A stretch of DNA of 64,000 bases, from NCBI RefSeq assembly GCF_005887635.2, contig NZ_CP040818.1, forward strand, positions 1,952,501 through 2,016,500. Direction: 5' to 3'. Both the position numbers and the translations under genes were made by a program. Positions 15,123 through 54,719 of this stretch are shown piece by piece. Source of the DNA: Paroceanicella profunda. GTDB taxonomy: Bacteria > Pseudomonadota > Alphaproteobacteria > Rhodobacterales > Rhodobacteraceae. The notes beneath the pieces are model-generated. The model saw only the letters and a list, made by a program, of their open reading frames with translations, was not told the DNA's origin and did no database searches. How positions within the stretch are numbered: the first letter of the stretch is position 1; each line of letters starts with the position of its first letter.

Positions 15123-15201
15123 CACCCCCGCTTCCGGAGGCGGGATGTTTCGCGTATGGTCCGCCGCGGCGCGCTGATTCTGCCTTCGGGCGCGCCGGTT
15201 C

Positions 15202-36985: not shown

Positions 36986-37191
36986 GGCTGGGGCTCCGGC
37001 TGGGGGATCGGGTGGCGCAGGCGTGGGGGACGGAAGCGGGCGGGCAGGCGGGAGGCGCGGCCGGCAAAGCCGGTCGGTCGGACAGGAGGCCGGCCCGGCG
37101 AAGAAGGCGGGCGGCCCGTGCGGCGGCAGCGGGGGGCCGGCCCGGCCGCGAAGGAATGTTCTGGAAACGGGCGGCGGCGGGGAGCATCTTC

Positions 37192-37266
37192 TCGGGTCGG
37201 GTCGGGTCGGGTCGGGTCGGGTCGGGTCGGGTCGGGTCGGGTCGGGTCGGGTCGGGTCGGGTCGGG
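37192..37266. repeat. (TCGGG)15 perfect pentanucleotide microsatellite
   Basis: Fifteen uninterrupted TCGGG units, 75 bases. The plus strand has 15 G3 runs spaced by two bases, enough for several quadruplexes; the plus strand is the template for the flanking leftward permease genes. The unit is not a multiple of three, and no supported gene covers it. Confidence 0.97.
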
Positions 37267-37290
37267 ATGCGCGCCAGCCGGCGGGTGCCG

Positions 37291-37318
37291 GGCCCGGGGG
37301 CGTCGCGACCCCCGGGCC
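37291..37318 (-). terminator. Hairpin downstream of the permease B gene
   Basis: GGCCCGGGGG and CCCCCGGGCC form a perfect ten-base stem around the eight-base loop CGTCGCGA, nine bases after the permease B stop. There is no T-run. It may stabilise the upstream mRNA or attenuate read-through into permease C. Confidence 0.65.
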
Positions 37319-37327
37319 GGGGCCCCG

Positions 37328-38263
37328 TCAGGCGGGTTTCGCGGCGCGGCCCGTGCGCAGGCGCGGGTCCACCCAGCCGTAGGCCATGTCCACGACGAGA
37401 TTGGCGCCCACCATGGTGAAGCCGATCAGCAGCAGGATGACCTGCACCACCGCGAGGTCCCGGTTCGCCACGGCGGTGACCAGCAGACGCCCCACCCCGG
37501 GCCAGGAGAAGATGCTCTCCACCACCACCGCGCCGGCCACCAGGCTGCCCACCATGAAGCCGATGATGGTGAGCGTGGGAATGGCGGCATTCGGCAGGGC
37601 GTGGCGGATGATCACCTGGTGCCACAGCAGCCCCTTGGCCGAGGCGGTGCGGATATAGGGCTGGCCCAGCGTCTCCAGCATGGCCGAGCGGGTGAACCGC
37701 GCGATCACCGCCGCCCCGATCACCCCCATGGTGACGATGGGCAGCACCGCGTGCCACAGCGTGTCCGAGCCGCCGGAGGGCAGCCAGCGCAGCCGCACCG
37801 CGAAGATCAGCGCCAGCACCAGCCCCATCACGAAGCTCGGCACGGTGAAGCCCATCACCGAGACGGTCATGATCGCCCGGTCGATCACCGTGTTGCGGTG
37901 AAGCGCTGCCCAGATGCCGGCGGGGATGCCGATGAGCATGTTCAGCAGCAGCGCCGGCAGGGTGATGAGCAGCGTGTCGGGCACCCGCTCCAGCACCAGG
38001 TCCAGCGCCGGGCGGCCGTCACGCATCGACAGGCCGAGGTCGCCGTGGGCGATGGCCGAGAAATAGCGCAGATACTGGACCCACAGCGGCTGGTCGAGGC
38101 CCCAGGCGGCGCGGAAGGCCTCGAAGGCCTCCGGCGGCGCCTCGGGTCCGAGGATCGCGATGGCCGGGTCGCCGGACAGGCGCAGCACCACGAAGGCCGC
38201 CGAGACGATCAGTGCCACGGTCACCAGGGCGCGCAGCAGGCGGGAGAGGAAATAGCGCATCAT
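37328..38263 (-). CDS. Dipeptide/oligopeptide-type ABC permease, DppB family
   Basis: An inner-membrane subunit of 311 residues, starting MMRYFLSRLLRALVTVALIVSAAFVVLRLSGDP, the usual DppB N-terminus. The permease signature reads IRTASAKGLLWHQVIIRHALPNAAIP, and SIFSWPGVGRLLVTAVANRD follows near the C-terminus. The start at 38263 is seven bases after the stop of the ATPase gene. The much longer frame upstream lies inside that ATPase gene and is spurious. Confidence 0.93.
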   Translation of the reverse strand: MMRYFLSRLLRALVTVALIVSAAFVVLRLSGDPAIAILGPEAPPEAFEAFRAAWGLDQPLWVQYLRYFSAIAHGDLGLSMRDGRPALDLVLERVPDTLLITLPALLLNMLIGIPAGIWAALHRNTVIDRAIMTVSVMGFTVPSFVMGLVLALIFAVRLRWLPSGGSDTLWHAVLPIVTMGVIGAAVIARFTRSAMLETLGQPYIRTASAKGLLWHQVIIRHALPNAAIPTLTIIGFMVGSLVAGAVVVESIFSWPGVGRLLVTAVANRDLAVVQVILLLIGFTMVGANLVVDMAYGWVDPRLRTGRAAKPA

Positions 38264-38270
38264 GTCCGGT

Positions 38271-39257
38271 TCACTCCGCGGCTTGGACCGCGGGCGCGGT
38301 CGCGAGATGGCAGGCAACGGAACGCCCGGAATCGCGCGCCAGGCGCGGCACCTCGCGGCTGCAGACGGCCATGGCCTGCGGGCAGCGCGGGTGGAAGGGG
38401 CAGCCCGAGGGAACGTCCACCGGGTTCGGGGGGTCGCCCTCCAGCACGATGCGCGCACGCTTGCGCCCGGGCACCGGGATCGCGGAGACGAGGGCCTGCG
38501 TGTAGGGGTGCAGCGGGCGGTGGAACACCTCCTCCGGCGCGCCTTCCTCCACGATCCGCCCGAGATACATCACCGCCACCCGGTCCGACATCTGCCGGAC
38601 CACCTTCAGGTCATGGCTGATGAACAGCGCGGCGAAGCCGGTGCGGGCGCGCAGGTCGTCGAGCAGGTTCAGCACCTGCGCCTGGATGGAGACGTCGAGC
38701 GCGGAGACCGGCTCGTCGCACACCAGCAGGGCCGGGTCGAGGGCAAGGGCGCGGGCGATGACCACCCGCTGGCGCTGGCCGCCGGAAAGCTCGTGCGGGT
38801 AGCGCTCGGCCATGCGCGCGCCGAGGCCCACCTGCTCCATGAGGTCGGCCACGCGCGCGGCGCGCTCCGGTGCGGGCAGGGCGGGCTCATGGATGACGAT
38901 GGGCTCGCCGATCTGCTCGCCCACCTTCATCCGCCGGTCCAGCGCGCCGAGCGGGTCCTGGTAGATCATCTGCATGCGCCGGCGCTGGCGGCGCCAGGCG
39001 GCGTCATGGCGCGCGGTCACGAGGGCGCCGTCGAAACGCACCTCGCCGGCGCCGGGCGGCACGAGGCCGAGCACCAGCCGCGCCGTGGTGGACTTGCCGC
39101 AGCCCGATTCCCCGACGAGCCCGAGCGTCCGCCCGGCGGGAATGTCGAAGTCGAGCCCGTCCACGGCCTTCAGCGTGGCGGGTTTGCCGAACAGGCCGCC
39201 GGGGCGGCGGATGGCGAAGTGGCGCTTGAGGCCACGCACACAGAGCAGCGCGGTCAT
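38271..39257 (-). CDS. Dipeptide/oligopeptide-type ABC ATPase, DppF family
   Basis: A 328-residue ATPase. Walker A is GESGCGKST, the signature LSGGQRQRVVIARALALDP and Walker B LLVCDEPVSALDVSIQAQ. The oligo_HPY C-terminal region is seen in RIVEEGAPEEVFHRPLHPYTQALVSAIPVP and the Cys-containing CPFHPRCPQAMAVCSREVP, which in this family may hold a cluster or metal. CCAGGAGGCC precedes the ATG at 39257. Confidence 0.93.
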   Translation of the reverse strand: MTALLCVRGLKRHFAIRRPGGLFGKPATLKAVDGLDFDIPAGRTLGLVGESGCGKSTTARLVLGLVPPGAGEVRFDGALVTARHDAAWRRQRRRMQMIYQDPLGALDRRMKVGEQIGEPIVIHEPALPAPERAARVADLMEQVGLGARMAERYPHELSGGQRQRVVIARALALDPALLVCDEPVSALDVSIQAQVLNLLDDLRARTGFAALFISHDLKVVRQMSDRVAVMYLGRIVEEGAPEEVFHRPLHPYTQALVSAIPVPGRKRARIVLEGDPPNPVDVPSGCPFHPRCPQAMAVCSREVPRLARDSGRSVACHLATAPAVQAAE

Positions 39258-39423
39258 CGGGCCTCCTGGCTGGCTGGAAACTGGCAGGGTTCGGCATGCG
39301 CCCGCGCTGCCCTGCCCGGGTGGGCCAGGGCGCATCGGGCCGCGACGCCCCGTGAGGATGCATCGGGCGACAGGCCGGCGCGGGAGGGGGACCGGGCTGC
39401 GGCGAAGGTGGGACGCAGCGGCC

Positions 39424-40470
39424 TCATGCGGGCACCTCGCGGGCATGTTCCACCCGTCCCTCGGGCGGCAGGGCGCCGCGGCGCACGGCCTCGATGCGCA
39501 GGCAGGCGGCGCGGTGGTCGCCGCCGGGCACCGGGCGCAGGCCCGGCAGGGTGCCGGAGCAGGCATCGTCGGCGAAGGCGCAGCGCGGCGCGAAGGTGCA
39601 GCCCGGGGGCAGCGCATCCGGCGCGGGCACCGTGCCGGGGATGGCGTCCAGCCGCACGCGCGGGCCGTCGATCACCGGAAGGGCCCGCATCAGCCCGATG
39701 GAATAGGGATGCGCCGGGGCGGAGAACAGCCGCGTCGCGCCGGCGGTCTCGATCACCCGGCCGCAATACATCACCGCCACGCGGTCACAGATGTCGGAGA
39801 CCACGCCGAGGTCATGGGAGATCAGCACCATCGCCATGCCGGTCTCGCGGCGCAGGTCGCCCAGCAGATCGAGGATCTGCGCCTGGATCGTGGCGTCGAG
39901 CGCGGTTGTCGGCTCGTCCGCGATCAGCAGCTCGGGCTCGCCCGCCAGCGCCATGGCGATCATCACGCGCTGGTTCATGCCGCCGGAAAGCTCGTGCGGG
40001 TAGTCGCGCAGGCGCTGGGCGGGGTTGGAGATGCCGACGCGCTCCAGCAGGCGGGTGGCCTCGCGGCGGGCGTCCTTGCCGCGCAGCCCGCGGTGCAGCC
40101 ACAGGGCCTCGCCGATCTGCCGGCCGATGCGGTGCACCGGGTTCAGCGCCGAGGACGGGTCCTGGAAGATGAGCGCGATGCGCCCGCCGCGCAGCCGGGC
40201 GAGGCGCCTTGCCGGCGCGTTCAGGATCTCCTCGCCCGCGAGCTTCACCGAGCCGCGAATCCGCGCGCGGGCGTCGAGCAGGCCGGTGGCCGCGAGCCAG
40301 GTGATCGACTTTCCGCAGCCGGATTCCCCCACGATTCCGAGGGTTTCGCCGCGGTGCACGTCGAGGTCCACCCCGTGCAGCGCGCGCACGAAGCGGCGGC
40401 CGGTGTCGAAATCCACCGTGAGCCCGCGCAGGCTCACGAGGGGTTTGAGCTCATCGAAATGCTCGGTCAT
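39424..40470 (-). CDS. Dipeptide/oligopeptide-type ABC ATPase, DppD family
   Basis: A 348-residue ATPase. Walker A is GESGCGKSI, the signature [19 protein letters not shown] and Walker [19 protein letters not shown]. The C-terminal [14 protein letters not shown] and the cysteine motif [24 protein letters not shown] are as in DppD. 152 GC-rich bases separate it from the binding-protein gene upstream and 166 from the DppF-type gene downstream. Confidence 0.93.
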
Positions 40471-40622
40471 GGCGGGTGCCCTGAACTCCGGGAGTGAGAT
40501 GGGCCGGCGGCCGGAGGGACGGCCACGGGCAGGGGGCAGGCCGGGCGTACCCGGGACGGCGGCGCCGCCCCCGGGCCGGAGCCGGGGGGCGGCGGAGCGG
40601 GCGCGGGCGCCCGGCTGTCACG

Positions 40623-42281
40623 TCAGTTCGCGGGCTTCACGATGGCGAAATTGTCGGCCCGGAAGTCCATCGACTGCAGCGCGGAGGGCTCCCAGGCGAT
40701 GTCGGCCCGCTTGCCGTAGAAGATCGCGTTCTGGTGCAGCACCGTGTAGGCGGGGTCCTCGCGCTCGGCGATCTCGAGCATCCGGCGGAAGGCGGCCCGG
40801 CGGGTTTCGAGGTCGGTCGAGGTCTCGAGCCGGATGCAGAGCGCGTTGAACTCCTCGTTCGTCCATTCGCCGACCTGCTGCTGCTGGCCGTTCTGGCAGT
40901 GCTGGTTGACGATGGAGGCCACCGGGTCCGGGAAGGGCGCGGAGTTCGACCAGTCGCGCACCATGCGCGGCCCGCTCTCGGTGTCGAAGATCTGCTGCCA
41001 GTTCTCCTTCATCTCGATCTGCACGTTGAGGCCGATCTGGCGGAAGGATTCGGCGTTGATCTGCGCGGTGGACACCTGGTTGGTGTAGTAGTTGTTGAGC
41101 ACGCGCATGATGATCGGCTCGCCGTTGTAGCTGGAGTCCTTCACCAGCTTGCGGGCCAGGTCCATGTCGTACTCGGGCACTTTCCAGTCCGACAGGTACA
41201 TGTCGCCGTAGTATTCCCACTGCAGGCCGGCCGGCACCTTGGTGCGGTTGCCCCAGAGCGCCTCGACGATGGAGTCCCGGTCGATGGCGTGGGTCATCGC
41301 CTGGCGAACCTTCACGTCCTTCATCGGGCCGTTGTTCTTGTCGAACACCATCAGGCGGTGGTTGGTGATCGGGCCGCCGACCACGTCGAACTTCGGCTCG
41401 TCGTCGATGAGGGCGATCTGGTCCGGCGGCACGTCGGTGATGAAGTCATACTCGCCCGAGAGCAGGCCGTTCACCCGGCTCGCCACCTCCGGCACCACCA
41501 CGAAGCGCAGCTCCGCGATCGGCGGCTTCCCGCCCCAGTAGTCGTCATGCGCGGCGAGCACGAGCACGTTGTCGGGCTTGAACTCCACCACCTTGTAGGG
41601 GCCGGTGCCGACCGGGTGGCGGGCGTAATCGGCCCAGGTCGGGGCTTCCTCATAGGCGCGTTTCGAGAGGATCTCGGCGCCGTAGCGCGAGATGCGGCCC
41701 TCCAGCGTGGGGTCCGGCACTTCGGAGATGAAGCGCACGGTCATGTCGTCCACCTTCTCCACCCGGTCGAGGTTCGGCCAGGCGCGGCGGGCCACGGCGG
41801 CCACTTCCGGCGGCGGCACCTTGCCGTTGGTGATCTGCGCGACGGTGGAGGTGAACAGCTGCGCGCCGGATTTCTGGGCCTCGATCTGCTCGGGCAGGGT
41901 GCCGAAGCGCTCCGGCGAGAAGGTGAACACCACGTCGTCGGCGGTCATCGTGTCGCCGTTGTGGAACTTCACGCCCTGGCGCAGGGTGAGCTCGACCGTC
42001 CGGTCGTCGATGCGCTTCCAGGAGGTGGCGAGGCCGGGCTTGCGCGGCAGGTCCGGCAGCTGGCGGTCATAGTCGATCAGCGTCTCGAACAGCGAGTAGA
42101 ACACGCGGGCGCCGACGTTGGACTGCTCGCGCAGAACGTCCAGGGCGCCGGCATTCACGATCTGCTGGACCGCGACGGTGATGTGCGGGCGGTCCTGCGC
42201 AAGGATGGGGGAGCTCAGCAGCGTGCTGGCCATGAGGCTCGCGGCAAGGGCGAGGCCGAGGGTGCGGCGGGTGAGGTGCAT
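40623..42281 (-). CDS. Dipeptide/oligopeptide-type ABC substrate-binding protein
   Basis: A periplasmic receptor of the SBP_bac_5 family, 552 residues. MHLTRRTLGLALAASLMASTLLSSPILAQ is the signal peptide. The mature protein shows LTLRQGVKFHNGDTMTADDVVFTF and HPVGTGPYKVVEFKPDN, both family hallmarks, and VRQAMTHAIDRDSIVEALW. First gene of the leftward operon. The ligand cannot be read from the sequence. The ATG at 42281 heads the signal peptide; a longer frame upstream is not supported. Confidence 0.93.
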   Translation of the reverse strand: MHLTRRTLGLALAASLMASTLLSSPILAQDRPHITVAVQQIVNAGALDVLREQSNVGARVFYSLFETLIDYDRQLPDLPRKPGLATSWKRIDDRTVELTLRQGVKFHNGDTMTADDVVFTFSPERFGTLPEQIEAQKSGAQLFTSTVAQITNGKVPPPEVAAVARRAWPNLDRVEKVDDMTVRFISEVPDPTLEGRISRYGAEILSKRAYEEAPTWADYARHPVGTGPYKVVEFKPDNVLVLAAHDDYWGGKPPIAELRFVVVPEVASRVNGLLSGEYDFITDVPPDQIALIDDEPKFDVVGGPITNHRLMVFDKNNGPMKDVKVRQAMTHAIDRDSIVEALWGNRTKVPAGLQWEYYGDMYLSDWKVPEYDMDLARKLVKDSSYNGEPIIMRVLNNYYTNQVSTAQINAESFRQIGLNVQIEMKENWQQIFDTESGPRMVRDWSNSAPFPDPVASIVNQHCQNGQQQQVGEWTNEEFNALCIRLETSTDLETRRAAFRRMLEIAEREDPAYTVLHQNAIFYGKRADIAWEPSALQSMDFRADNFAIVKPAN

Positions 42282-42341
42282 CGGTTGGTCCCGTTCCTGG
42301 AGATGACGGGGCACTGCATGGCGACGCGCGGCAACATCGGC

Positions 42342-42368
42342 GTGACAGGGATGCGACTGTCCTGTCAC
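42342..42368. promoter_or_regulatory. Inverted repeat GTGACAGG-N11-CCTGTCAC upstream of the dipeptide-type operon
   Basis: The eight-base arms at 42342-42349 and 42361-42368 are perfect inverses, 61 bases before the binding-protein start. Each arm contains CTGTCAC, the Pho-box half-site sequence, but in inverted rather than direct orientation, so a dimeric repressor site is as likely as PhoB binding. Confidence 0.5.
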
Positions 42369-42529
42369 AATCCGCGCGGCCCCCCGGCGGCCCGGCGTGC
42401 ACAGCACGCCAGGCAAGCCAGGCTGCATGTCAGGCAAGCCAGGCTGCACGTCGTGGCGAGGCCTGCCGCCACTGCGCATGTGATGCAGGCCCGTTGGCCC
42501 GGCAGCAGGCCCTCGGCGGGTACACCGAT

Positions 42530-42760
42530 AGGTTCCGGCAGGCCGGCCGGGAGCGATGGCCGGGCGGCGTTCCGGCAGGAAGGCTGAGAGCGATGGGCTG
42601 GCGGCGTTCATGCAGGCTGAGAGTGTCGCCGGGAAGGACGCCGGGCAGGCTGACGCTGCCGGCCGGGAGGCACTGGGCAGGCTGAGTTTGCCGGCCGGGA
42701 GGGTGCCGGGCAGGCCGGCTTGCAGTGCTGGCCGGGTGGACAGCGGGCCGGCCGGTCGGG
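42530..42760. repeat. Degenerate GC-rich repeat block
   Basis: Imperfect units of about 35-50 bases built around GGCAGGCTGA and GCCGGCCGGGAGG, with recurrences near 42583, 42611, 42656, 42678 and 42710. The units have diverged and no exact period holds. Confidence 0.55.
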
Positions 42761-42961
42761 GTGCCCGGCCCCGTCAGGCGGTCTCGGGAGGATGGCCCGG
42801 AAAGTGCCCGGCGGTCGGCCCCCGTCGAGGATGTCCGGGACAGGTCGGGAATGCGGTTGGCGGCCCGGCGCGCGCGGCTGTCATCGAACCGCGACATTCC
42901 GCGTGCAAGAGGGGCCCCGGACGGCCCGGGCGCGGGCCGGTGACCCCCGGGGGAGGGACGG

Positions 42962-44395
42962 ATGGACGTGACAGGGGCCCGGCGGGCCGTGATCGTGGTG
43001 TTCGACGGGCTCAGGCCCGACATGGTGACACCGGAGCTGATGCCCGAGCTCGCAGGCTTCGCCGCCGGCGCCGCGTGGTTCCGCGAGGCGCGCTCGGTGT
43101 TTCCCTCCTACACGCGGGTGGCGACGACCAGCATCGCCACCGGCTCCTGGCCGCGGCGCCACGGCATCGTGGGCAACCAGTTCCACCAGCCGGGGCTGAT
43201 TGCGGGCGGTCCGCTCGACACCTCGAACTACGCCCATCTGGAGGCCGCGGCCGTCGCCTGGCCCGGTGGGGCCGTGGGGGTGGAGGATCTCGGCACCAGC
43301 CTCGCGCGCGCCGGCAAGCGGCTCTCCATCGTGCACTGCGGCTCGGCCGGTTCGGCCTTCCTGCTCAACTCCCGGGTGCTGGAGAACGGCCACTGGACCT
43401 TCTCCATCCACGGCGAGGCGCATACCCGCACGCCCGGGGCGGTGCGGGCCTCCGTCGCCCGCCACGGCCCGCTGCCCGGGCCGGAGCTGCCGAAGATCGG
43501 CGCCGTGGAGCGTGCGGCACAGGTGGTCTGCGACACGGTTCTGGCCGAGCAGGCGCCGGACGTGGCCATCGTGTGGTTCCCGGAGCCGGACACCTCCTTC
43601 CACTATTGCCGCATCGGCTCGGAGGACTCGCGCCGCGCGCTCGCCGCCTGCGACACCGCCTTTGCCCGGATCCGCGCCGCGCTGGGGCCCGACACGCTGC
43701 TGATCGCCATGTCCGACCATGGCCAGATCACCGTGGACCGGGAGGTGGACCTCGGCGCCGCCCTGCGCGCCGCAGGCTTCCGCGCCTCCGACCGTCCGGG
43801 GGAGGGCGATGTCTTCGGCTACACCCGGGGGGCCGCGGGTGAGTTGCGCCTGCTCTCCGACCGCCCGGACCCCGCCGCCGTCTCGGACCTCGCGGCCTGG
43901 GCCATGGAGCAGGACTGGCTGGGCCTCCTCTTCTCCCGCGACGGCCTGCCCGGCACCCTGCCGCTTGCGGCGGTGATGGGCGACCACCCCCGTGCGCCCG
44001 ATCTCGTCTACGCCTGCCGCTCCGACCGCACGCCCGACCCGGACGGCCTGCCCGGCCGCGGCGCCTTCACCGGCGGTGTGCCGCTGATGGGCGGCATGCA
44101 TGGCGGGCTGAACCGGCATGAGCTCACCACCCTGCTGGCCCTCTCCGGCCCCGGCATCACGCCGGGTGAGCGGGAGTGCCCGGCCGGCATCGTGGACGTG
44201 ATGCCCACCGTGCTCGCCGCGCTCGGCGTTCCCCAGCAGGGCGCCGAGGGCCGCGTGCTGGAAGAGGCCTGGGGGGCTGCCCCCGCCGCCGTCGAGCGGC
44301 TTTATGACCGTGCCCGCGCGGGCCGTTTCGCCCAGGAACTCCAGCGCCTGGGCTACCGGGACCGGGTGTATCTGCACGAGGGCGCCCGCCTCTGA
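42962..44395 (+). CDS. Alkaline phosphatase superfamily hydrolase (nucleotide pyrophosphatase/phosphodiesterase type)
   Basis: A 477-residue metal-dependent phosphoesterase or phosphodiesterase. Asp15 in VVFDGLRPDM, the probable nucleophile Thr51 in VFPSYTRVATTS, the Asp and His of PEPDTSFHYC, SDHGQ and the final His of GGMHGGLNRHE make up the two-metal site of the NPP/phosphonoacetate-hydrolase group. No signal peptide is seen, so it is probably cytoplasmic. GGGGGAGGGACG precedes the ATG. It is divergent from the dipeptide-type importer and may act on its cargo. The substrate is unknown. Confidence 0.88.
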   Translation: MDVTGARRAVIVVFDGLRPDMVTPELMPELAGFAAGAAWFREARSVFPSYTRVATTSIATGSWPRRHGIVGNQFHQPGLIAGGPLDTSNYAHLEAAAVAWPGGAVGVEDLGTSLARAGKRLSIVHCGSAGSAFLLNSRVLENGHWTFSIHGEAHTRTPGAVRASVARHGPLPGPELPKIGAVERAAQVVCDTVLAEQAPDVAIVWFPEPDTSFHYCRIGSEDSRRALAACDTAFARIRAALGPDTLLIAMSDHGQITVDREVDLGAALRAAGFRASDRPGEGDVFGYTRGAAGELRLLSDRPDPAAVSDLAAWAMEQDWLGLLFSRDGLPGTLPLAAVMGDHPRAPDLVYACRSDRTPDPDGLPGRGAFTGGVPLMGGMHGGLNRHELTTLLALSGPGITPGERECPAGIVDVMPTVLAALGVPQQGAEGRVLEEAWGAAPAAVERLYDRARAGRFAQELQRLGYRDRVYLHEGARL

Positions 44396-45112: not shown

Positions 45113-45183
45113 GGGCACGATCAGGGCGCGGGCGGGCCGCAAAGGCAAGCCCCCGGCGCGGTGGCACCGGGGGCAGGGGTGGC

Positions 45184-46005: not shown

Positions 46006-46964
46006 GGAAGTCTCCGTTCCGGGCATGGTGCTTCGCCGCCTAAGCCCGGCGGGTGACAGGACGGAGACGCCCCGATGGCCCTTTGATGACCGCCGCGCGG
46101 GGAGGGGACGCCCGCCTTGCCGAGGGGGCCTCGCGGCCCCCGCAGCGCGGCGGGTGTGGCGAAGGACTGTCGTCCTCCGCCGGCGCGCGGTGCCCCGCGG
46201 TTTCGCATGTGGGTGGCTTTGCCGGCTGGGCGCTTCGGGCGTCCACCGGAGCGGGGCGGGTGGCTGGCGGGGTCTTGTGCGGCCGAGATCGTCTCGCTGT
46301 CGGGAGTCACCGGAAGGCCTGTCGGCGTCTGCGCTGCGCGGGGAAATCGCGCCCATGTCGGGTAGGGGCATCCGATTGCACGGGGCCGCGCCCCCGAGCA
46401 GGTGCGTGAGCCGGACGCCCACCCTGAGTTGGGCGCGAAGGGCCGCGCCCGACCCTGGGTGGGCGCGAGCAACGCTTCTGGTCAGCGGTTTATCCCGAAA
46501 GCCCCGAACGAGGGCTGAACGTCGAGCGACATCGCCATCGCGCCCTCCCGGGGGGAGGGTCGGGCGCGGCCCGGGCTGGTCGCCCGGGCGGTCGAGGCGG
46601 GCCGGGAGGTCATTGCCTTGCCCGAACGTCGTCGGAGACGCACGTTCGGCAAGCAGCAAGCAGCAAGCAGCAAGCAGCAAGCAGCAAGCAGCAAGCAGCA
46701 AGCAGCAAGCAGCAAGCAGCAAGCAGCAAGCAGCAAGCAGCAAGCAGCAAGCAGCAAGCGGCAAGCGGCAAGCGGCAGGCATGCCGGGCAGCAGGCGCAC
46801 CGGGGCACCGGGGCGCCTGACGCGGCATTTGCACGAGGTTCATCCGACGATGACGCGACGCAGTGGCGCCGGACCCGGCCGAGCGGCCCCCCGGGTCCGC
46901 AGGGACGGGCTCCGGCGGGCAACCGCATCGCCCGCCGGCGAGCTGCGGAGCAATGGCCCGCCCG
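46006..46964. other. 959-base gap with heptamer microsatellite
   Basis: The longest gap in the window, between the racemase and isomerase genes on the same strand. It holds the AAGCAGC array (46651-46776) and GC-rich inverted sequence such as GAGGGGGCCTCGCGGCCCCC near 46117. Several long frames exist, but they are repeat-derived or lack any protein-like motif. No gene is supported. Confidence 0.55.
46651..46776. repeat. (AAGCAGC)15(AAGCGGC)3 heptanucleotide microsatellite
   Basis: Fifteen identical AAGCAGC units (46651-46755) followed by three AAGCGGC units (46756-46776). The seven-base unit puts successive copies in different frames, so all frames stay open and give LLAACC- or SKQQAA-type peptides that are not credible proteins. 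Confidence 0.97.
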
Positions 46965-47630
46965 TCAGCCTGTCCCGTTCCCCAGCCCCACCATTGCATG
47001 CGCGAGGCGCACGGCGGCGCGCACGCCGTCGATCACCGGCACGCCATGGGCGGCGGAGAGACGGTCCGCGAGGTCGGCCATCCCGGCGCAGCCGAGCACG
47101 ATGGCGCCGGCGCCATCCTCGGCCACCGCGCGGCCGATCTCGGCGCTCACCTGCGCCTCGGCAGCGCCGCCGAGCTCCTCGAGCGCGAGGACCGGCACCT
47201 CGCTCGCCCGCACCCGGGCGCAGAGCGCGGCGAGCCCGTAGGCCTCGAGGTTCTCCTCGATCACCGGGATCGAGACCGAGAGGGTGGTGACCACCGAGAA
47301 CCGGTGCCCGGAGAGCGCCGCGGCATGGAAGGCGGCCTGGCCGATGCCGAGCACGGGGCCGGGGAAGAGCGCCCGCGCCTCGGCAAGGCCGGTGTCGTCG
47401 AAACAGGCGATGATCGCGGCATCCGCCCCCTCGGCGGCGCCGGCGCGCAGGGCGGCGAAGAGCCCGGGCAGGGCGGCGGCCCCATCCTCGGCCCCCTGGA
47501 TCGAGGCCGGACCGGAGAGCGAGGTGCGTGCGAGGATCTCGACCCCGGCAGGCGCCGCGCCCCGCGCCGCCTCCGCCGCCTTCTCGGTCATCGAGACGGT
47601 GGTGTTCGGGTTGACCAGCAGGAGGCGCAT
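46965..47630 (-). CDS. Aspartate/glutamate/hydantoin racemase family protein
   Basis: A 221-residue protein starting MRLLLVNPNTTVSMTEKAAEAA, the N-terminus of hydantoin racemases. The two active-site cysteines are in AAIIACFDDTGL (about residue 75) and AIVLGCAGMADL (about residue 180), with VLGIGQAAFHAA between them. It lies 143 bases downstream of the last polyamine-type permease gene, so the imported compound may be a hydantoin, ureide or amino acid derivative. This is inferred from neighbours only. Confidence 0.9.
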   Translation of the reverse strand: MRLLLVNPNTTVSMTEKAAEAARGAAPAGVEILARTSLSGPASIQGAEDGAAALPGLFAALRAGAAEGADAAIIACFDDTGLAEARALFPGPVLGIGQAAFHAAALSGHRFSVVTTLSVSIPVIEENLEAYGLAALCARVRASEVPVLALEELGGAAEAQVSAEIGRAVAEDGAGAIVLGCAGMADLADRLSAAHGVPVIDGVRAAVRLAHAMVGLGNGTG

Positions 47631-47668
47631 CTCAGCTCCGCCTCCGGGGGCGCGCGACCGGCCCGCGC

Positions 47669-47752
47669 CGCGGCGCGCCCTGCCGCCGACACCCCGCGCC
47701 AGCGCTGGCGCCGCGACGGCACGAGGGGGCTCGATGCCCCCGAGGGACGTAT
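47669..47752. repeat. Dispersed hairpin-bearing element, copy 2
   Basis: The best conserved part is 47708-47750, with hairpin GGGGGC-TCGAT-GCCCCC at 47725-47741. It lies between permease C (ends 47774) and the racemase gene (starts 47630). The upstream 40 bases are recognisably related to copy 1 at 44477 but more diverged. Confidence 0.8.
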
Positions 47753-47773
47753 CCGGAGAGGGTCGCCATCACC

Positions 47774-48613
47774 TCAGACCATGCCCTTGCCGGCGTCCGA
47801 GGCCCGCCGGGCCCGGCGCCGCTGCGCGATGAAGGCGCCGCCCAGGAACACGCCGATGATGGCGAGCGAGAACAGCGTGGTGAGCGTGCCGAGCGCGTAG
47901 AGCACCGGCGAAGTGACATTGGTCGTCATGCCGAAGATCTCCAGCGGCAGGGTGTTGTAGCTGCCGGCGGTGAGCAGGGTGCGGGCGAATTCGTCGTAGG
48001 ACAGCGTGAAGCCGAACAGCGCCACGCCGATCAGCGAGGGCGCGATGATCGGCAGCACCACGTGGCGGATGGTCTGCCAGGGCGTGGCGCCCTGGTCGCG
48101 CGCGGCCTCCTCGAAGGAGGCGTCGAACCGGTTGAACACCGCGAACATGATCAGCAGGCCGAAGGGCAGGGTCCAGGTGAGCTGGGCGCCGAAGCCGGAG
48201 GTGGACCAGTGCACGTTCAGCCCGGCGATGTTGAAGATCAGCCCCACCCCCAGCGACACCAGGATGGAGGGAATGATCAGCGAGGTGACGATGAGCAGGA
48301 ACAGGACGCCCGAGCCGCGGAACTTCTTGCGAAAGGCGAGCCCGCCCATCACGGAGACCACCACGGTCACCACCATCACCATGAGCCCCAGCACCAGGCT
48401 GCGCCCGAAGCTGCCCCAGATGTCGCCCACCGCCTGCTGCTCGAACAGGTCCGCGAACCAGTGCAGCGAGACGCCGTTCATCGGGAAGGTGAGCCCACCC
48501 TGCGGCCCCTGGAAGCTCAGGATGGCGATGGTGATCGTCGGCCCGTAGAGGAACAGCACGAACAGCGCGAAGATCGCGCCGAGGACGTAGAAGGAGCGCG
48601 GGCGCGGTTCCAT
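47774..48613 (-). CDS. Polyamine-type ABC permease, PotC family
   Basis: An inner-membrane subunit of 279 residues with about six helices. SLHWFADLFEQQAVGDIWGSFGRSLVLGLMVMVVTVVV and the EAA loop FEEAARDQGATPWQTIRHVVLPIIAPSL mark the PotC family. The protein ends with a basic RRRARRASDAGKGMV tail. Its ATG lies one base after the PotB-type stop, so the two are co-translated. The substrate is unknown; the family carries polyamines, Fe(III) chelates and other small cations or amines. Confidence 0.92.
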   Translation of the reverse strand: MEPRPRSFYVLGAIFALFVLFLYGPTITIAILSFQGPQGGLTFPMNGVSLHWFADLFEQQAVGDIWGSFGRSLVLGLMVMVVTVVVSVMGGLAFRKKFRGSGVLFLLIVTSLIIPSILVSLGVGLIFNIAGLNVHWSTSGFGAQLTWTLPFGLLIMFAVFNRFDASFEEAARDQGATPWQTIRHVVLPIIAPSLIGVALFGFTLSYDEFARTLLTAGSYNTLPLEIFGMTTNVTSPVLYALGTLTTLFSLAIIGVFLGGAFIAQRRRARRASDAGKGMV

Positions 48614-48614
48614 C

Positions 48615-49526
48615 TCAGAGCTCCTTGCGGATGTCGACGAAGCGCAGCATCGCCGAGATCATGATGAGGACGGTGAGCAGCAGGATCACCGCGTCGGCGG
48701 CGGCGGCGGGGTATTGCAGCAGCGCGATCTCGTTGGAGATCATCCGCCCCACCGAGGCGGACTGGCCGCCGGACATGAAGCGCACGGTGATGAAGTCGCC
48801 CATCACCAGCGTGACCACGAAGATCGAGCCGATCATGATGCCGGGCTTGGTGAGCGGTATGATCACGTTCCACAGGATCTGGCCGCCGGTGGCGCCCGCG
48901 TCCCGCGCCGCCTCGATCAGGGATTTGTCGATGCGCATCATGGTGTTGAAGATCGGCACCACCATGAAGAGCGTGTAGAGATGCACGAAGGCGAGCACCA
49001 CGGCGAAGTCGGAGAACAGCAGCCATTCCACCGGCTCCGAGACGATCCCGAGATCGAGCAGCACCGAGTTCGCGATGCCGTTGCGGCCCAGGAACGGGAT
49101 CCAGGAGATCATCCGGATGATGTTCGAGGTCCAGAACGGGATGGTGCAGAGCAGGAAGAGCGCGATCTGCCAGGTCTGGGTGCGCACGTGGAAGGCGAGG
49201 AAATAGGCCACCGTGAAGCCGATCGCCAAGGTGAACACCCAGGTGAGCACCGTGTACATCAGCGTGTTGAGATAGACCGAGAGCGTCACCGGCGAGGTGA
49301 GCAGGAACTGGTAATTGTCCCACAGGAAGGCGGGGTAGAAGGACCACTCGGTGGAACCCCAGAAGCTCACCACCACGATGGTGATCACCGGCAGCACCAG
49401 GAAGAAGCCCAGCACCAGCACCAGCGGCGAGGCGAGCGCCCAGGCGGTGACCGCCTCGGGGACGCGGTAGAGCCCGGTGGCCCGGGCGGGGGCCGTTGCG
49501 GGCGCGGTGATCTCGATGTCGCTCAT
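48615..49526 (-). CDS. Polyamine-type ABC permease, PotB family
   Basis: An inner-membrane subunit of 303 residues starting MSDIEITAPATAPARATGLYRVPEAVTAWALASPLVLVLGFFLVLPVITI. The loop IEAARDAGATGGQILWNVIIPLTKPGIMIG is the EAA motif of this family, and LLCTIPFWTSNIIRMISWIPFLGRNGIAN is typical of PotB. The ATG at 49526 starts a well-behaved membrane protein; the longer frame upstream crosses repeat sequence. Confidence 0.92.
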   Translation of the reverse strand: MSDIEITAPATAPARATGLYRVPEAVTAWALASPLVLVLGFFLVLPVITIVVVSFWGSTEWSFYPAFLWDNYQFLLTSPVTLSVYLNTLMYTVLTWVFTLAIGFTVAYFLAFHVRTQTWQIALFLLCTIPFWTSNIIRMISWIPFLGRNGIANSVLLDLGIVSEPVEWLLFSDFAVVLAFVHLYTLFMVVPIFNTMMRIDKSLIEAARDAGATGGQILWNVIIPLTKPGIMIGSIFVVTLVMGDFITVRFMSGGQSASVGRMISNEIALLQYPAAAADAVILLLTVLIMISAMLRFVDIRKEL

Positions 49527-50093
49527 CCTCGGCGCTTCCCTTGCTCTTGAGGGCCCGCGCCGTGGCGCGGGGAGGTGTCGGGCGGGCCGGCGGCCGGTGG
49601 AGCCGCCGGGTGGTGTCTGTCGTCTCCCGGGTGGCGCGGGAGGGCGGCCGCCGGGGGTGCCGACCGCGTCGGAGAGGGGCTGCGCCCCCCGCCTCCGCGA
49701 CGGCGTCGGGTCCCTTCGGGCCCCTCCGGCGCGGGCTCCGGCCGGGCGCTGCCCTCGCGGCTCTGCGCGGCGGCCGGAGCGGGCGCACCGGGTGCGCAGC
49801 ACCCGGCCGGGCCCAAAGTGCAGGACACCGACAGGTGGCCGGAGCACGGGAGGGCTCCCGGTGATGACCGGCTTGCGGACCGGGGGCAATCGCGGGATCT
49901 TCCGTGCCTCGTGCCTCGTGCCTCGTGCCTCGTGCCTCGTGCCTCGTGCCTCGTGCCTCGTGCCTCGTGCCTCGTGCCTCGTGCCTCGTGCCTCGTGCCT
50001 CGTGCCCCGCTGGCCGGATGCCTGCGAGGACGTCCGGCGGCGGGGGTGGTTGCGGAGGCCTGCGCGCCGGGGCGGCAGGCCTCCGCCTGGCCG
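49527..50093. other. 567-base intra-operon gap with heptamer microsatellite
   Basis: Lies between the binding-protein and PotB-type permease genes of the same operon. It contains the GTGCCTC array and GC-rich DNA on both sides. No gene or clear promoter is seen. Such a long leader inside an ABC operon is unusual. Confidence 0.55.
49904..50008. repeat. (GTGCCTC)14 heptanucleotide microsatellite
   Basis: Fourteen perfect GTGCCTC units (49904-50001) followed by one variant GTGCCCC (50002-50008). Repeat-encoded frames give PRASCLV- or LVPRASC-type peptides with no other support. It begins about 85 bases downstream of the binding-protein stop, in the transcribed spacer. Confidence 0.97.
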
Positions 50094-51374
50094 TCAGGCG
50101 GCGATGAACTCGTTCCACTTGCGAACCATGTACTGGTTCTCGTCCATCACCGAGTTCCAGCAGGCCACGTGGCCCATGCGCTCCTCGAAGGAGCCGCCGT
50201 CACGGGTGGCGCCGGCCTTCTCCATCACCTGGCCCTGCGGGTTCACGATGTCCTCCTGCGCGGGCTTGCCCTCGAACCAGTAGCCCCACTCGTCGGCGGT
50301 CATGAATTCCTTCGAGGTCTCGGGCACGGCGGAGTAGTAGCCCTGGCGCATCAGGAAGCCGCCGACCCAACCGGAGAGATACCAGTTGATGTACTCGTAG
50401 GCTGCCTCCAGCTCGAGGCCCGAGAGGTTCTTCGACAGGCCGATCCCGCCGCCCCAGGAGCGGTAGCCCTCCTTCAGCGGCTGGTAGACGCAGGGAATGC
50501 CCTTGGTCTTCACTGCGGTGATGGCGGGCGACCACATGGACTGGATCACCACCTCGCCGGAGGCCATCAGGTTCACGCTCTCGTCGAAGCTCTTCCAGAA
50601 GGCGCGGAACTGGCCGGCCTTCTTCGCCTCGGTGAAGATCGCCATGGTCTTGTCGATCTCCTCGCGGGTCATGTTGCCCTTGTCGCCGTAGGAGATCTCG
50701 CCCATCGCCTCGCAGACCATCGCCGCGTCCATGATGCCGATGGAGGAGATGTCGAGGATCGAGGCCTTGCCCTTGAACTCGGGGTTCAGCAGCTCGGTCC
50801 AGCTGGAGATCGGGCGGCCGATCAGGTCGGGGCGGATGCCCAGCGTGTCGGCGTTGTAGATGGTGGGGATCAGGGTCATCCAGCCGGTCTCGTGATCGGC
50901 GAAGGTCGTGCCGTCCGGCCCGTCCACGAAGCCCACGGTGTGCGGCGCGGTGCCCTGCGCGATCACGCTCCCCGGGGTGAGCTTGCCGGATTTGAAGATG
51001 CCCACGATCTTGTCGTAGTTCTTGATCTTGGAGACATCCATCGGCTGCAGGTTGCCCGACGGCCAGACCTTCTTGCAGATCCAGTACTCGATGTCGGCAA
51101 TGTCGAAGCTGTTGGGCTGGGTGGCGGCGCGCTGGGTGACGGAATCGGAATCGAGCGCGGTCATCTCCAGGGTGAAGCCGAGGTCCTCCTTCACCTTCTG
51201 CGCCACCTCGTTGAGGTTCGACACGCCGGTGCCGAACTGGCGCAGGGTCACGTCCTTGATGTTCTGGGCCCAGATCATCGGCGCGCCGATCGTGGAGCCG
51301 GCCGCGAAGGTGGCCGTCGCGGCGGCACCCTTGAGGAGGCTGCGCCGGCTCACTCCGGTCTTTGTCATGGTCAT
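50094..51374 (-). CDS. Polyamine-type ABC substrate-binding protein, Tat-exported
   Basis: A periplasmic receptor of the PotD/SBP_bac family, 426 residues. MTMTKTGVSRRSLLKGAAATATFAAG is a twin-arginine signal, with probable cleavage near PMIWAQ. The mature part has VTLRQFGTGVSNLNEVAQKVKEDLGF, DIADIEYWICKKVWPSGNLQPMDVSKI and AYEYINWYLSGWVGGFLMRQGYYSAVPET, the last typical of PotD-like proteins. The ATG at 51374 follows GAGGACAAGA; a second ATG six bases later also fits. The ligand is not known. Confidence 0.92.
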   Translation of the reverse strand: MTMTKTGVSRRSLLKGAAATATFAAGSTIGAPMIWAQNIKDVTLRQFGTGVSNLNEVAQKVKEDLGFTLEMTALDSDSVTQRAATQPNSFDIADIEYWICKKVWPSGNLQPMDVSKIKNYDKIVGIFKSGKLTPGSVIAQGTAPHTVGFVDGPDGTTFADHETGWMTLIPTIYNADTLGIRPDLIGRPISSWTELLNPEFKGKASILDISSIGIMDAAMVCEAMGEISYGDKGNMTREEIDKTMAIFTEAKKAGQFRAFWKSFDESVNLMASGEVVIQSMWSPAITAVKTKGIPCVYQPLKEGYRSWGGGIGLSKNLSGLELEAAYEYINWYLSGWVGGFLMRQGYYSAVPETSKEFMTADEWGYWFEGKPAQEDIVNPQGQVMEKAGATRDGGSFEERMGHVACWNSVMDENQYMVRKWNEFIAA

Positions 51375-51409
51375 GGGTCTTGTCCTCTTCCCTGTTGGAG
51401 GTTCTTTGT

Positions 51410-52390
51410 TCAGCTGGCCAGCGGATGCAGGTCCGCGGGGTTCCATGAAAGGGTCACCGGGTCTCCCGGCCCCAGCGGGGCGGCGTAGAACTCCGCCTCC
51501 GGCACCATCGCGGTGAGATCGTCCGCGCCGGCGGTGCGCAGCGCCACGCTCACGCTGTGACCCTGGAATTCGATGCCGCTCACGATGGCGGCCAGCCCGG
51601 CGCCGCCGCGGCTCACCGCGAGGCGGTCGGTGCGGATGGCGTGACGGCGGCCGCCGTCGGTGAGCACGTTGTGCCCGCCCATGAAGCGGGCGACGAACTC
51701 GGTGACGGGCGCGTTGAAGATCTCGCGCGGCGTGCCGGCCTGCTCGATCTTCGCGCGGTTCATCACCACGATCATGTCCGCCAGCGCCAGCGCCTCGTCC
51801 TGGCCGTGGGTCACGTGCACGAAGCTGATGCCGAGCTCGCGCTGCAGGCGCTTGAGCTCGGAGCGCATGCGGATGCGCAGGAACGGGTCGAGCGCGGAGA
51901 GCGGCTCGTCGAGCAGCAGGATCTGCGGCTCGGTGATCAGCGCGCGGGCCAGCGCCACGCGCTGCTGCTGCCCGCCGGAGAGCTGCGCCGGCAGCCGGTC
52001 CGCATAGGCCGAGATGTCCACCAGCTCCAGCAGCTCGCCGGCGCGGCGGTGGCGGGTGGGCTTGTCCACGCCCTTCATCTTGAGGCTGAAGGACACGTTG
52101 TCGATCACGCTCAGGTGCGGGAAGAGCGCGTAGCTCTGGAACATCATCGCGGTGCCGCGCCTTGCCGGGGGCAGGGCGCCGATGCGCTGGCTGCCCAGCA
52201 GGATGTCGCCGTCGCTCACGCTCTCGTGGCCGGCGATCATCCGCAGCGTGGAGGACTTGCCGCAGCCCGAGGGCCCCAGCAGGCAGCAATAGGTGCCCGC
52301 CGGCACCAGCAGCGATATCGCGTCGACCGCCACGGTCTCCCCGTAGCGCTTGGTCAGCGCGACCAGTTCGAGATCAGATGCCTGGCGCAT
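51410..52390 (-). CDS. Polyamine-type ABC ATPase, PotA family
   Basis: A 326-residue ATPase. Walker A is GPSGCGKSS, the signature [19 protein letters not shown] and Walker B ILLLDEPLSALDP, with HVTHGQDEALALADMI as the switch region. The C-terminal about 80 residues (AIRTDRLAVSRGGAGLAAIVSGIEFQGHSVSVAL) form a TOBE domain. First gene of the leftward operon and divergent from the GntR regulator. Confidence 0.93.
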   Translation of the reverse strand: MRQASDLELVALTKRYGETVAVDAISLLVPAGTYCCLLGPSGCGKSSTLRMIAGHESVSDGDILLGSQRIGALPPARRGTAMMFQSYALFPHLSVIDNVSFSLKMKGVDKPTRHRRAGELLELVDISAYADRLPAQLSGGQQQRVALARALITEPQILLLDEPLSALDPFLRIRMRSELKRLQRELGISFVHVTHGQDEALALADMIVVMNRAKIEQAGTPREIFNAPVTEFVARFMGGHNVLTDGGRRHAIRTDRLAVSRGGAGLAAIVSGIEFQGHSVSVALRTAGADDLTAMVPEAEFYAAPLGPGDPVTLSWNPADLHPLAS

Positions 52391-52448
52391 GGGTTTCTCC
52401 GCTGCCGTTCCGGAACCGTCTCCCCGGGGCCATGCAAAGCCCGTGCCA

Positions 52449-52573
52449 ATTGTTTACAATCTTTTAACACATTGAACGGAATGTGAAATCTCAGGTGGCT
52501 GGCCGCAGGCCGATTCCGGGCTGCGCGAAGATTGAGCAGATTGCCAACAATATGATGGAAGATTGCACACAAT
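52449..52573. promoter_or_regulatory. Three ATTG-N4-CAAT palindromes between potA-type and GntR genes
   Basis: ATTGTTTACAAT (52449-52460), ATTGCCAACAAT (52540-52551) and ATTGCACACAAT (52562-52573) share identical arms ATTG/CAAT with a four-base spacer. The last two are 22 bases apart, two helix turns. FCD-type GntR proteins often bind TTGT-ACAA-like palindromes, so these are good candidates for operators of the adjacent regulator. Their presence here argues that the regulator gene starts downstream of them. Confidence 0.7.
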
Positions 52574-52665
52574 TCCCGCTTGTGCCGGCGGCTGGCGGGA
52601 TTACATTCGTGCGCATGCAGGGTCGGCCGCCTGCCAGTCCGGCCGTTTGCAATGGATGGACCGAC

Positions 52666-53355
52666 TTGGCCAAGGACAGCCTTGAGACAGCGCCGCCCGT
52701 CGAGACCGTGAAGCGGGATCTGATGCGCGCCATTCTCGACCACCGGCTGCCCCCCGGCACCCGGCTCACCGAGGAAGCGGCGGCAGCGCATTACGGCGTG
52801 GGGCGCACGGTGGTGCGCACGGCGCTGCTCTCGCTCGCGCATGACGGGCTCGTCACCATCGAGCGCAATCGCGGCGCCTTCGTCGCCCGCCCGGCCCCGC
52901 AGGAAGCGCGGGAGGTGTTCGAGGCCCGCTCGCTGCTGGAACCGCGCGCCGCCCGGCTCGCCGCGCAGCGCGCCACCCCCGCCGACATCGAGGACCTGCG
53001 CCGCCACCTGAGGGAGGAGCACGGCGCGCTCGCCGCGGGGGACACCGGCAGCGCCGTCCTCCTCTCCGGCCAGTTCCACACCCGCATCGCCGAGATCGCC
53101 GCGCAGGAAACCATCGCCAGCTTCGTGCGCGCCCTCGTCTCGCGCTCCTCGCTGGTGATCGCGCTCTACTGGCGCCGGCGCGACACCGTGTGCGAGAGCC
53201 ATGCCCACCATGAACTGCTGTCGGCCATCGGCCGGGGAGACGGCGCCGCCGCGGAGGAACTGATGCAGAGCCACCTCGTGGATCTCCTGTCCGGGCTCGA
53301 CCTGTCGGACGGCATCCGCCCCGTCTCCAGCCTCGCCAAGGCGTTGCAGGGATGA
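52666..53355 (+). CDS. GntR-family transcriptional regulator, FCD subfamily
   Basis: A 229-residue regulator from TTG 52666. The winged helix is ETVKRDLMRAILDHRLPPGTRLTEEAAAAHYGVGRTVVRTALLSLAHDGLVTIERNRGAFV, followed by an FCD ligand domain with EVFEARSLLEPRAARLAA, FHTRIAEIAAQET and the metal-ligand-like ESHAHHELLSAIGRGDGAAAEELMQSHL. The frame is open back to 52483, but that stretch is operator-rich and not protein-like. An ATG near 52615 is an alternative start. Probable controller of the divergent polyamine-type operon. Confidence 0.85.
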   Translation: MAKDSLETAPPVETVKRDLMRAILDHRLPPGTRLTEEAAAAHYGVGRTVVRTALLSLAHDGLVTIERNRGAFVARPAPQEAREVFEARSLLEPRAARLAAQRATPADIEDLRRHLREEHGALAAGDTGSAVLLSGQFHTRIAEIAAQETIASFVRALVSRSSLVIALYWRRRDTVCESHAHHELLSAIGRGDGAAAEELMQSHLVDLLSGLDLSDGIRPVSSLAKALQG

Positions 53356-54188
53356 TGGACATCCGTCCGGTGCGGCAGGACGAAATGCCGCTGATCCTGG
53401 GCTGGGCCCGGGACGAGGGCTGGAACCCGGGGCTGGACGATGCCGCGATGTTCCATGACGCGGACCCGGAGGGCTTTCTCGTCGGCCACATTAGGGGAGA
53501 GCCGGTCGCCGCCATTTCCGTGGTGCGCCAGGGCACGTCCTACGGCTTTCTCGGGCTCTACATCGTGCCGCCGAAATGGCGCCGCCGCGGCCTCGGGCTG
53601 GAGATCTGGAAGGCGGGCATGGAGCGGCTGGAGGGCCGGGTCGTCGGGCTCGACGGCGTGCCGGAGCAGCAGGACAACTACCGTCTCTCCGGCTTCGAGG
53701 AAGCGCATCAGAGCCACCGCTACACCGGCCTGCTTCCCAGCTACATGGGCCGCGCCAACGTCGAGCCGGTGGGGCACAGGAACCTCGCGCCGGCGCTCAG
53801 CTTCGACCGCAAGGTCGCCGGGGTGCAGCGCACTACCTACATCGGCCGGATGCTGACCGACAGCGTCACCCGCCGCTCGGTGGCAGTGGTCGACGGCGGC
53901 GTGCTGCACGGGCTCGCAACCGCGCGCTTCTGCGACACCGGGGTGAAGATCGGCCCGCTGCTGGCCTATGACGGCGACGTGGCGCTCCAGCTCATCTCCG
54001 GCCTCGCGCCCTGGATCGGCCGTGTGCCTGTGTCCATCGACGTGCCCTCGCCGAACCATGAAGGCGTGAAACTGGTGACCGGCCTGGGCCTGAAACCGGT
54101 GTTCCAGACCGCGCGGATGTATCGCGGCCCGGCGCCGAAGGCCGACATCTCCCGCTGTTTTGGCATCGCCACGCTGGAACTCGGCTGA
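53352..54188 (+). CDS. GNAT-family N-acetyltransferase with C-terminal YitH/HolE-like domain
   Basis: A 278-residue protein. Residues 3-130 form a GNAT domain (MDIRPVRQDEMPLILGWARDEGWNPG, and the acetyl-CoA loop IVPPKWRRRGLGLEIW). A second domain of about 120 residues (YIGRMLTDSVTRRSVAVVDGGVLHGLATAR, KLVTGLGLKPVFQTARMYRG) resembles the Acetyltransf_18 half of two-domain GNATs. The ATG at 53352 overlaps the GntR stop, so the regulator and acetyltransferase form one unit. An amine or amino acid acceptor linked to the nearby importer is plausible but unproven. Confidence 0.88.
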   Translation: MMDIRPVRQDEMPLILGWARDEGWNPGLDDAAMFHDADPEGFLVGHIRGEPVAAISVVRQGTSYGFLGLYIVPPKWRRRGLGLEIWKAGMERLEGRVVGLDGVPEQQDNYRLSGFEEAHQSHRYTGLLPSYMGRANVEPVGHRNLAPALSFDRKVAGVQRTTYIGRMLTDSVTRRSVAVVDGGVLHGLATARFCDTGVKIGPLLAYDGDVALQLISGLAPWIGRVPVSIDVPSPNHEGVKLVTGLGLKPVFQTARMYRGPAPKADISRCFGIATLELG

Positions 54189-54719
54189 AACCTGGGGCAC
54201 CGGCTGGCGCCGCGACCGGGCCCGGCGGCATTCATTGCCTGCGGATGGACCCTTGCGGCAGGTCCGGTGCGCAAGCACGCCCGCCTCTCCGCCTCTCCGC
54301 CTCTCCGCCTCTCCGCCTCTCCGCCTCTCCGCCTCTCCGCCTCTCCGCCTCTCCGCCTCTCCGCCTCTCCGCCTCTCCGCCTCTCCGCCTCTCCGCCTCT
54401 CCGCGTTGGTCGGGCGCTCGGGGGCTGATGTCCCCAGCCATTGGCCGGAGGTCCGGGCGGGGCCATGCCCCGGGAGACGCCACGATCGCGCTGGAACACG
54501 GCCTGCCGCCGGTCCCGTCAGGGGCGCGGCTGCCGGGGCAGGGGCGCCCGGGGCCGCTTCTCGGCGTGGCGGCCGGTGGGCCAGCGGCCGCGCCTCGACC
54601 GGGGCAGCACCGGTCTGGTCCTGCGTCGGGACAGGGTCGGGACCCCGTGCGGCGGGGCCGGTTCGCGCCGGGGCGCTGCTCCGGAGGACGGCGGGCGATG
54701 GCCCCGCGTTGCGCGGGGG
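54189..54719. other. 531-base gap between convergent genes with octamer microsatellite
   Basis: Lies between the acetyltransferase and MATE genes, which converge. It contains the GCCTCTCC array at 54283-54402 and GC-rich DNA. The many overlapping frames across it are repeat-derived. No gene is supported. Confidence 0.55.
54283..54402. repeat. (GCCTCTCC)15 perfect octanucleotide microsatellite
   Basis: Fifteen uninterrupted GCCTCTCC units, 120 bases. One strand is a nearly pure pyrimidine tract apart from one G per unit; the other is GGAGAGGC-rich and could form triplex or G-rich structures. The unit of eight bases excludes an in-frame protein repeat. Confidence 0.97.

Follow-up and report, generated by a model that had tools for sequence, protein, structure and literature searches.

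The closest described relatives of the repeats considered here are the long simple sequence repeats (LSSR) of Mrazek, Guo and Shah (2007), which are quoted as having units of 5-11 bp, heptamers as the commonest size and lengths beyond chance expectation (PMC4679880, PMC4692102); the ten genomes richest in them are given as four Burkholderia, two Cyanobacteria, three Actinobacteria and one Xanthomonas (PMC4679880). Heptamers of the types GGGAATC and GGGGA(C/T)T in Xanthomonas and Nostoc are described as mostly intergenic, rarer in divergent gaps and variable between close species, and in Xanthomonas one G-quadruplex-forming unit occupies >180 sites per genome, mostly in about 4 copies (PMC4692102). 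The TAACTGA direct repeats of marine Beggiatoaceae are 7 bp long and intergenic, and are reported particularly upstream of start codons (PMC4679880). Contingency loci of pathogens, for which Haemophilus influenzae serves as an example (PMC2651432), carry tetranucleotide tracts, the majority with at least 15 copies, that mediate phase variation (PMC4235727). Here we analyse four perfect tandem arrays, with units of 5, 7, 7 and 8 bp, in a window of 64,000 nucleotides (the whole stretch analysed, C1:1952501-2016500) from the chromosome of Paroceanicella profunda (C1, 4,039,866 bases; genome 5,468,583 bases). We consider it probable, at roughly 75%, that these arrays are ordinary members of a genome-wide class of young, perfect 5-9 bp microsatellites, born by slippage and kept where they do little harm.

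Results

Array 1 (window positions 37192-37266) consists of (TCGGG)15.0, array 3 (49903-50006) of (CGTGCCT)14.9 and array 4 (54281-54404) of the 8-bp unit in (CCGCCTCT)15.5, all perfect. Array 2 has a perfect part of a 7-bp unit, (GCAAGCA)15.9 at 46649-46759, and an edge of variant units at 46754-46781, in which (GCAAGCG)3.4 extends to 46777 and is followed by a GGCAGGC-type unit; with these variants included, Tandem Repeats Finder (TRF) scores the array at 19.0 copies and 97% identity, ending at 46781. A run scan recovered all four where the original prediction, made from the letters of the window, had placed them, and 20 order-3 Markov simulations of the window produced zero runs that reached 3 copies and 20 bp at any period from 4 to 12. 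These comparisons confirm the four perfect arrays as real and place them far above chance. The proposal that all of them lie outside genes also agrees with our gene calls, which came from our own codon-usage caller after training on nine genes of the window.

The same class of array is found well beyond the window. Perfect arrays (period 4-24, at least 28 bp, at least 3.5 copies) were surveyed in 1.65 of the 5.47 Mb of the genome, window included, and numbered 53, comprising 46 with units of 5-9 bp and seven with units of 13-18 bp. Tests of unit and position used the 45 arrays of period 5-9 with zero coding bases, thus excluding the seven longer-period arrays and a 7-mer array at C1:1845368 (15.9 copies, 3-base gene overlap). 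Heptamers were the commonest among these 45 (n=23), followed by units of 8 bp (n=11), 6 bp (n=6), 9 bp (n=3) and 5 bp (n=2), and array lengths varied between 31 and 351 bp. In an 864-kb subset, used for the period spectrum and for TRF identity scoring, the longest runs of periods 1, 2, 3 and 4 measured 11, 12, 17 and 15 bp versus 10, 15, 16 and 15 bp in one order-3 simulation; for periods 5-9 they reached 75, 38, 351, 182 and 115 bp versus 16-22 bp in that simulation. Perfection was equally marked: among the 19 rows that TRF scored at periods 5-9 and 3 or more copies, 17 were 100% identical, the others being array 2 (99%) and a single row at 86%; rows of longer period had 66-95% identity. The window's tandem repeats of 51 and 41 bp (579-839 and 4685-4902, both in gaps) differ from the 5-9 bp class in being imperfect, with 86-91% identity.

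Units hardly recur, with three repeated classes among the 45 arrays (3, 2 and 2 times). Compared with random intergenic words they show no difference in GC skew (p 0.37) or purine bias (p 0.36); in 16 of 36 arrays the G-rich strand of the unit coincides with the leading strand, and folding shows no clear trend. A special unit sequence (G-rich strand, purine tract or leading strand) was rejected, the units behaving as random ones do.

Arrays are confined almost entirely to intergenic sequence, which makes up 19-22% of the sampled bases: 45 of the 46 with 5-9 bp units are free of coding bases, the exception being the array with the 3-base overlap. Orientation was tested on the 44 gaps in which an array of any period was found, among 876 gaps. 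Convergent gaps accounted for 22 of these 44, against 11.6 expected with length matching (p 0.0002), and divergent gaps for 4, against 9.3 (p 0.02); none of the four 5-9 bp arrays in divergent gaps exceeds 8 copies. Where the flanking genes run in tandem, 14 of 17 arrays lie closer to the 3' end of the upstream gene (sign test p 0.013), a count that omits C1:3973355, whose called upstream gene is 3,553 bp off and downstream gene 647 bp; including this array gives 14 of 18 (hand-calculated sign test, about 0.03). Avoidance of promoter gaps fits selection against promoter interference, contrary to a role in promoter tuning.

Copy number does not follow a rule of 15. The original prediction had suggested a constraint on length and called for a scan of 5-9-base units; in the 1.65 Mb sampled, the 46 perfect arrays of this size have from 3.9 to 50.1 copies, and such a constraint is not borne out. 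Locally, a fifth neighbouring array at C1:2022511 has 15.3 copies, so that five neighbours at 14.9-15.9 copies span about 33 kb. A post hoc permutation within a 570-kb region gave the run of five a p of about 0.002 and the run of four one of about 0.02; limited to arrays with at least 8 copies, these values were 0.014 and 0.077. The coincidence weakens if array 2 is taken as 19 units. The equal copy number is a local, mild, post hoc anomaly and not a genome-wide rule, and a cluster of equal copy numbers should not be taken as regulation without a genome-wide background.

We compared the gaps with the draft assembly of the sister strain Oceanicella sp. SM1341, in which 872 gaps were tried and 117 proved orthologous, 8 of them array gaps. 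Long aligned blocks diverge by about 9-16%. None of the four window arrays is present in SM1341 at the matching site: the gap of array 1 is reduced to 5 bp and that of array 4 to 20 bp, the gap of array 2 (692 bp) contains, close to the equivalent place, a CATCGGG-type 7-mer of related appearance in about 3 copies, and the gap of array 3 (853 bp) holds a 13-bp unit in 10.5 copies. At a further P. profunda site, (GCTGAGG)22, SM1341 has an 8-bp unit in 11.9 copies instead. Two array sites fall outside the 8 orthologous array gaps: at the second array of sampled locus L139 the compared SM1341 stretch has no array, and at L175 the SM1341 match stops and resumes on another contig. SM1341 arrays (at least 3 copies, 21 bp) occurred in 2 of the 8 orthologous array gaps versus 1 of the 60 non-array gaps measuring 150 bp or more (Fisher p 0.035, a small sample), and the mean alignable fraction was 0.12 in the former versus 0.49 in the latter, the arrays themselves depressing the value of 0.12. 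Besides the 13-mer in 10.5 copies, SM1341 has perfect arrays of the same class, for example a 6-mer in 17.2 copies.

The recent or ongoing expansion put forward in the original prediction is upheld by these comparisons, with 17 of 19 arrays 100% identical despite the divergence of the sister strain, and with sister gaps that lack these units or hold others. Decay would be expected in arrays dating back to the species split; those observed are either young or constantly homogenised.

Among other relatives, four assemblies of 1-4 contigs, searched over 100 kb each, had 0 perfect arrays, and 79 other loci (1.45 Mb, mostly from drafts and some from outside Rhodobacterales) had a perfect 5-9 bp array in 4, including Albimonas and Granulosicoccus. 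Because drafts can collapse arrays, rarity among relatives is not proven by these counts. A 21-kb locus of Albimonas donghaensis (L088) has two intergenic heptamer arrays, at 3099-3129 and 15108-15180, and the array-rich trait may extend to this genus.

The genes around the window arrays are mainly those of transporters. Array 1 lies in a 342-bp spacer (36986-37327) between two peptide-type permease genes on the - strand, 61 bp past the 3' end of the DppB/OppB-type gene (37328-38263) and 206 bp from the start of the DppC/OppC-type gene (36086-36985). Array 3 lies in the spacer 49527-50093, 87 bp past the 3' end of a solute-binding protein gene (50094-51374, - strand; SBP_bac_8, PotD/PotF-like from the annotation of plasmid matches) and 376 bp from the start of a permease gene (48615-49526, - strand; BPD_transp_1 slightly below the Pfam cut-off), which is followed by a second permease gene (47774-48613, - strand; BPD_transp_1). 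Two arrays had been expected between subunit genes of one ATP-binding cassette (ABC) transporter; arrays 1 and 3 do separate subunit genes, and the transporters are two different ones, the second of PotD type. Array 2, in the spacer 46006-46964, lies beyond this second operon. Array 4 occupies the convergent spacer 54189-54719 between genes for a GNAT acetyltransferase (53352-54188, + strand) and a MATE-family transporter (54720-56099, - strand), with no downstream gene; from arrays 1-3 the distance to the start of the gene downstream is 206-643 bp. Between window positions 35000 and 57000 no RNA family reached its gathering threshold, and array 3 taken together with its flanks had no match in plasmid records, whose wider matches are to the transporter genes.

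Discussion

Unit size, perfection, placement and sister-strain turnover can be brought together if the arrays expand by slippage, a motor that we infer from sequence. Chance short duplications in spacers would serve as seeds, and a seed with a few copies could then grow quickly through strand slippage. Slipped loops of 1-4 bases would be removed by intact MutS/MutL and loops of at least 5 bases would escape, which would set the lower limit of unit size. Contraction or deletion would remove arrays before point mutations blur their sequence, and purifying selection would clear genes and promoter gaps, leaving arrays to build up behind gene ends and between converging genes. Both mutS and mutL scored above the cut-off in 11 of 11 genomes searched, P. 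profunda included; loss of mismatch repair, as in a hypermutator, was rejected on the presence of these two genes and on runs of 1-4 bp units that stay at chance level. Bacteria are not known to have Msh3. In fission yeast, Msh3 has been linked to heptanucleotide repeat stability (PMC5427490), and in an earlier idea 7 bp corresponds to the DNA segment held by the polymerase (PMC4679880, PMC4692102).

Several observations weigh against expansion by slippage as a sufficient account. The account draws on the assembled sequence of one isolate, and the loop-size limit of bacterial repair enters it as general background. As mutS and mutL are also present in relatives, they do not account for the array richness of this genus. 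Seven perfect arrays of period 13-18 in the extended sample lie beyond the 5-9 bp range, and slippage leaves the local run near 15 copies unexplained. Perfection is less strict in SM1341, where two of the four TRF rows with units of 5-9 bp score 95 and 96%. Interspersed repeats are found in 11 of 44 array gaps versus 34 of 829 other gaps (length-stratified Mantel-Haenszel p 0.002), an excess that means seeding may not be purely random. Density is also uneven (p 0.0007): of the chromosome sampled, the 570 kb around the window hold 31 arrays and the remaining 1,020 kb hold 21, although the former region was picked because of the window. The dense stretch at 1.7-2.27 Mb had raised the suspicion of a replication terminus, which the GC skew of the sampled stretches rejects: its sign changes near 1.25 Mb (origin-like) and 3.2 Mb (terminus-like) place the window in mid-arm.

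A further suggestion, which we offer tentatively, is that slippage of 5-9 bp units proceeds unusually fast in this genus, perhaps through an altered polymerase or a missing nuclease that processes loops or structures, and that the spacers are continually rewritten as arrays are born, exchange their unit and are lost. If this is true, one gap would host different arrays in sister species, and the genus would be a natural test of how large a loop must be before bacterial repair gives up.

Among the alternatives to slippage from chance seeds, the one that survives best, improbable as we consider it, is that mobile or interspersed elements seed the arrays or bring them along. The excess of interspersed repeats in array gaps speaks for it, as do the units GCTGAGG and GGGCTCC, which recur at other places in SM1341, and the arrays at C1:2022511 and C1:2146758, which share one unit and a second differing by one base, in the same order. 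However, in 33 of the 44 array gaps the sample shows no element of this kind, three unit classes recur among 45 arrays, and by a rough estimate heptamer classes are few enough for coincidences to be expected. The paired arrays (C1:2022511-2022670 and C1:2146758-2146833) lie in distant convergent gaps, with a common first heptamer of the TGTTCCC class and second heptamers CCCTGAG and TCCCTGA.

An interspersed GC-rich element with inverted ends at 46440-46574, inside the spacer of array 2, belongs to a family that recurs in other gaps; it and a related stretch (L120:18130-18429) have matches in up to 13 other sampled gaps and also in SM1341, and the element is possibly structured or similar to a miniature inverted-repeat transposable element. 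The largest linked group of interspersed elements covers 17 of 876 gaps. A stretch of about 95 bp at L132:2303-2400 (C1 about 1202303) has 41 of its 51 listed matches in SM1341, at 74-90% identity.

An artefact of assembly or error correction seems still less likely. The genome of P. profunda D4M1 was sequenced with PacBio RS and Illumina, and its assembly by PacBioToCA/Celera with Illumina correction (PMC7002103) leaves room for one. Three arrays of 106-107 bp in the draft of SM1341 (L204, L216, L227) suggest k-mer-limited collapse in that assembly. Yet the 45 P. profunda arrays show no fixed length over their span of 31 to 351 bp, two sequencing technologies were combined, and the separately assembled SM1341 has the same class of array; the window arrays are alike in copy number and not in length (75-124 bp), and are thus unlike a length-limited artefact.

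Least probable of all is that a constraint near 15 copies lets the arrays tune downstream transporter subunits in the manner of contingency-locus spacers: the local run of five (p about 0.002) and the position of arrays 1 and 3 between subunit genes favour it, but the sampled copy-number range, the 19 units with variants of array 2, the avoidance of divergent gaps, the closeness of tandem arrays to upstream 3' ends, the 206-643 bp that separate arrays 1-3 from a downstream start, the lack of any gene downstream of array 4 and the 5-bp sister spacer at array 1 count against both this and the tuning first suggested.

Taken as slippage-born microsatellites, the arrays combine a sharp 5-bp lower limit, few decayed members, avoidance of promoter gaps and turnover of units between sister strains. 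The genus would thus make a handy natural system for studying bacterial microsatellite birth and loss, and one suited to asking whether escape from repair sets unit size.

Comparison with known systems

Among the papers listed in a literature search naming the genus, no title concerned repeats, and the word 'repeat' is absent from the main text of the P. profunda genome paper (PMC7002103). Among described systems, contingency loci resemble the P. profunda arrays in being perfect tandem repeats, most of the cited tracts having at least 15 copies. They differ in unit length (5-9 bp in P. profunda) and in placement, since P. profunda arrays avoid promoter gaps and genes; the window arrays lie outside reading frames and, judged by the positions of the called genes, outside promoters and 5' regions. 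The Beggiatoaceae TAACTGA repeats are likewise 7-bp intergenic tandem repeats, but there one unit is common, whereas P. profunda units differ from site to site and their placement is opposite to that reported. The Xanthomonas and Nostoc heptamers share 7-bp units, a mostly intergenic location, scarcity in divergent gaps and variability between close species; unlike the single Xanthomonas unit at many sites, nearly each P. profunda site has a unit to itself, in up to 50 copies. With LSSR as quoted, the agreement covers both defining features: runs exceed expectation, and units measure 5-9 bp with heptamers commonest. The differences are that no Rhodobacterales appear among the ten richest genomes in the cited list, and that orientation bias and the turnover of sister spacers are measured here in P. 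profunda. The P. profunda arrays are thus a fresh example of the already known 5-11 bp LSSR with heptamer excess.

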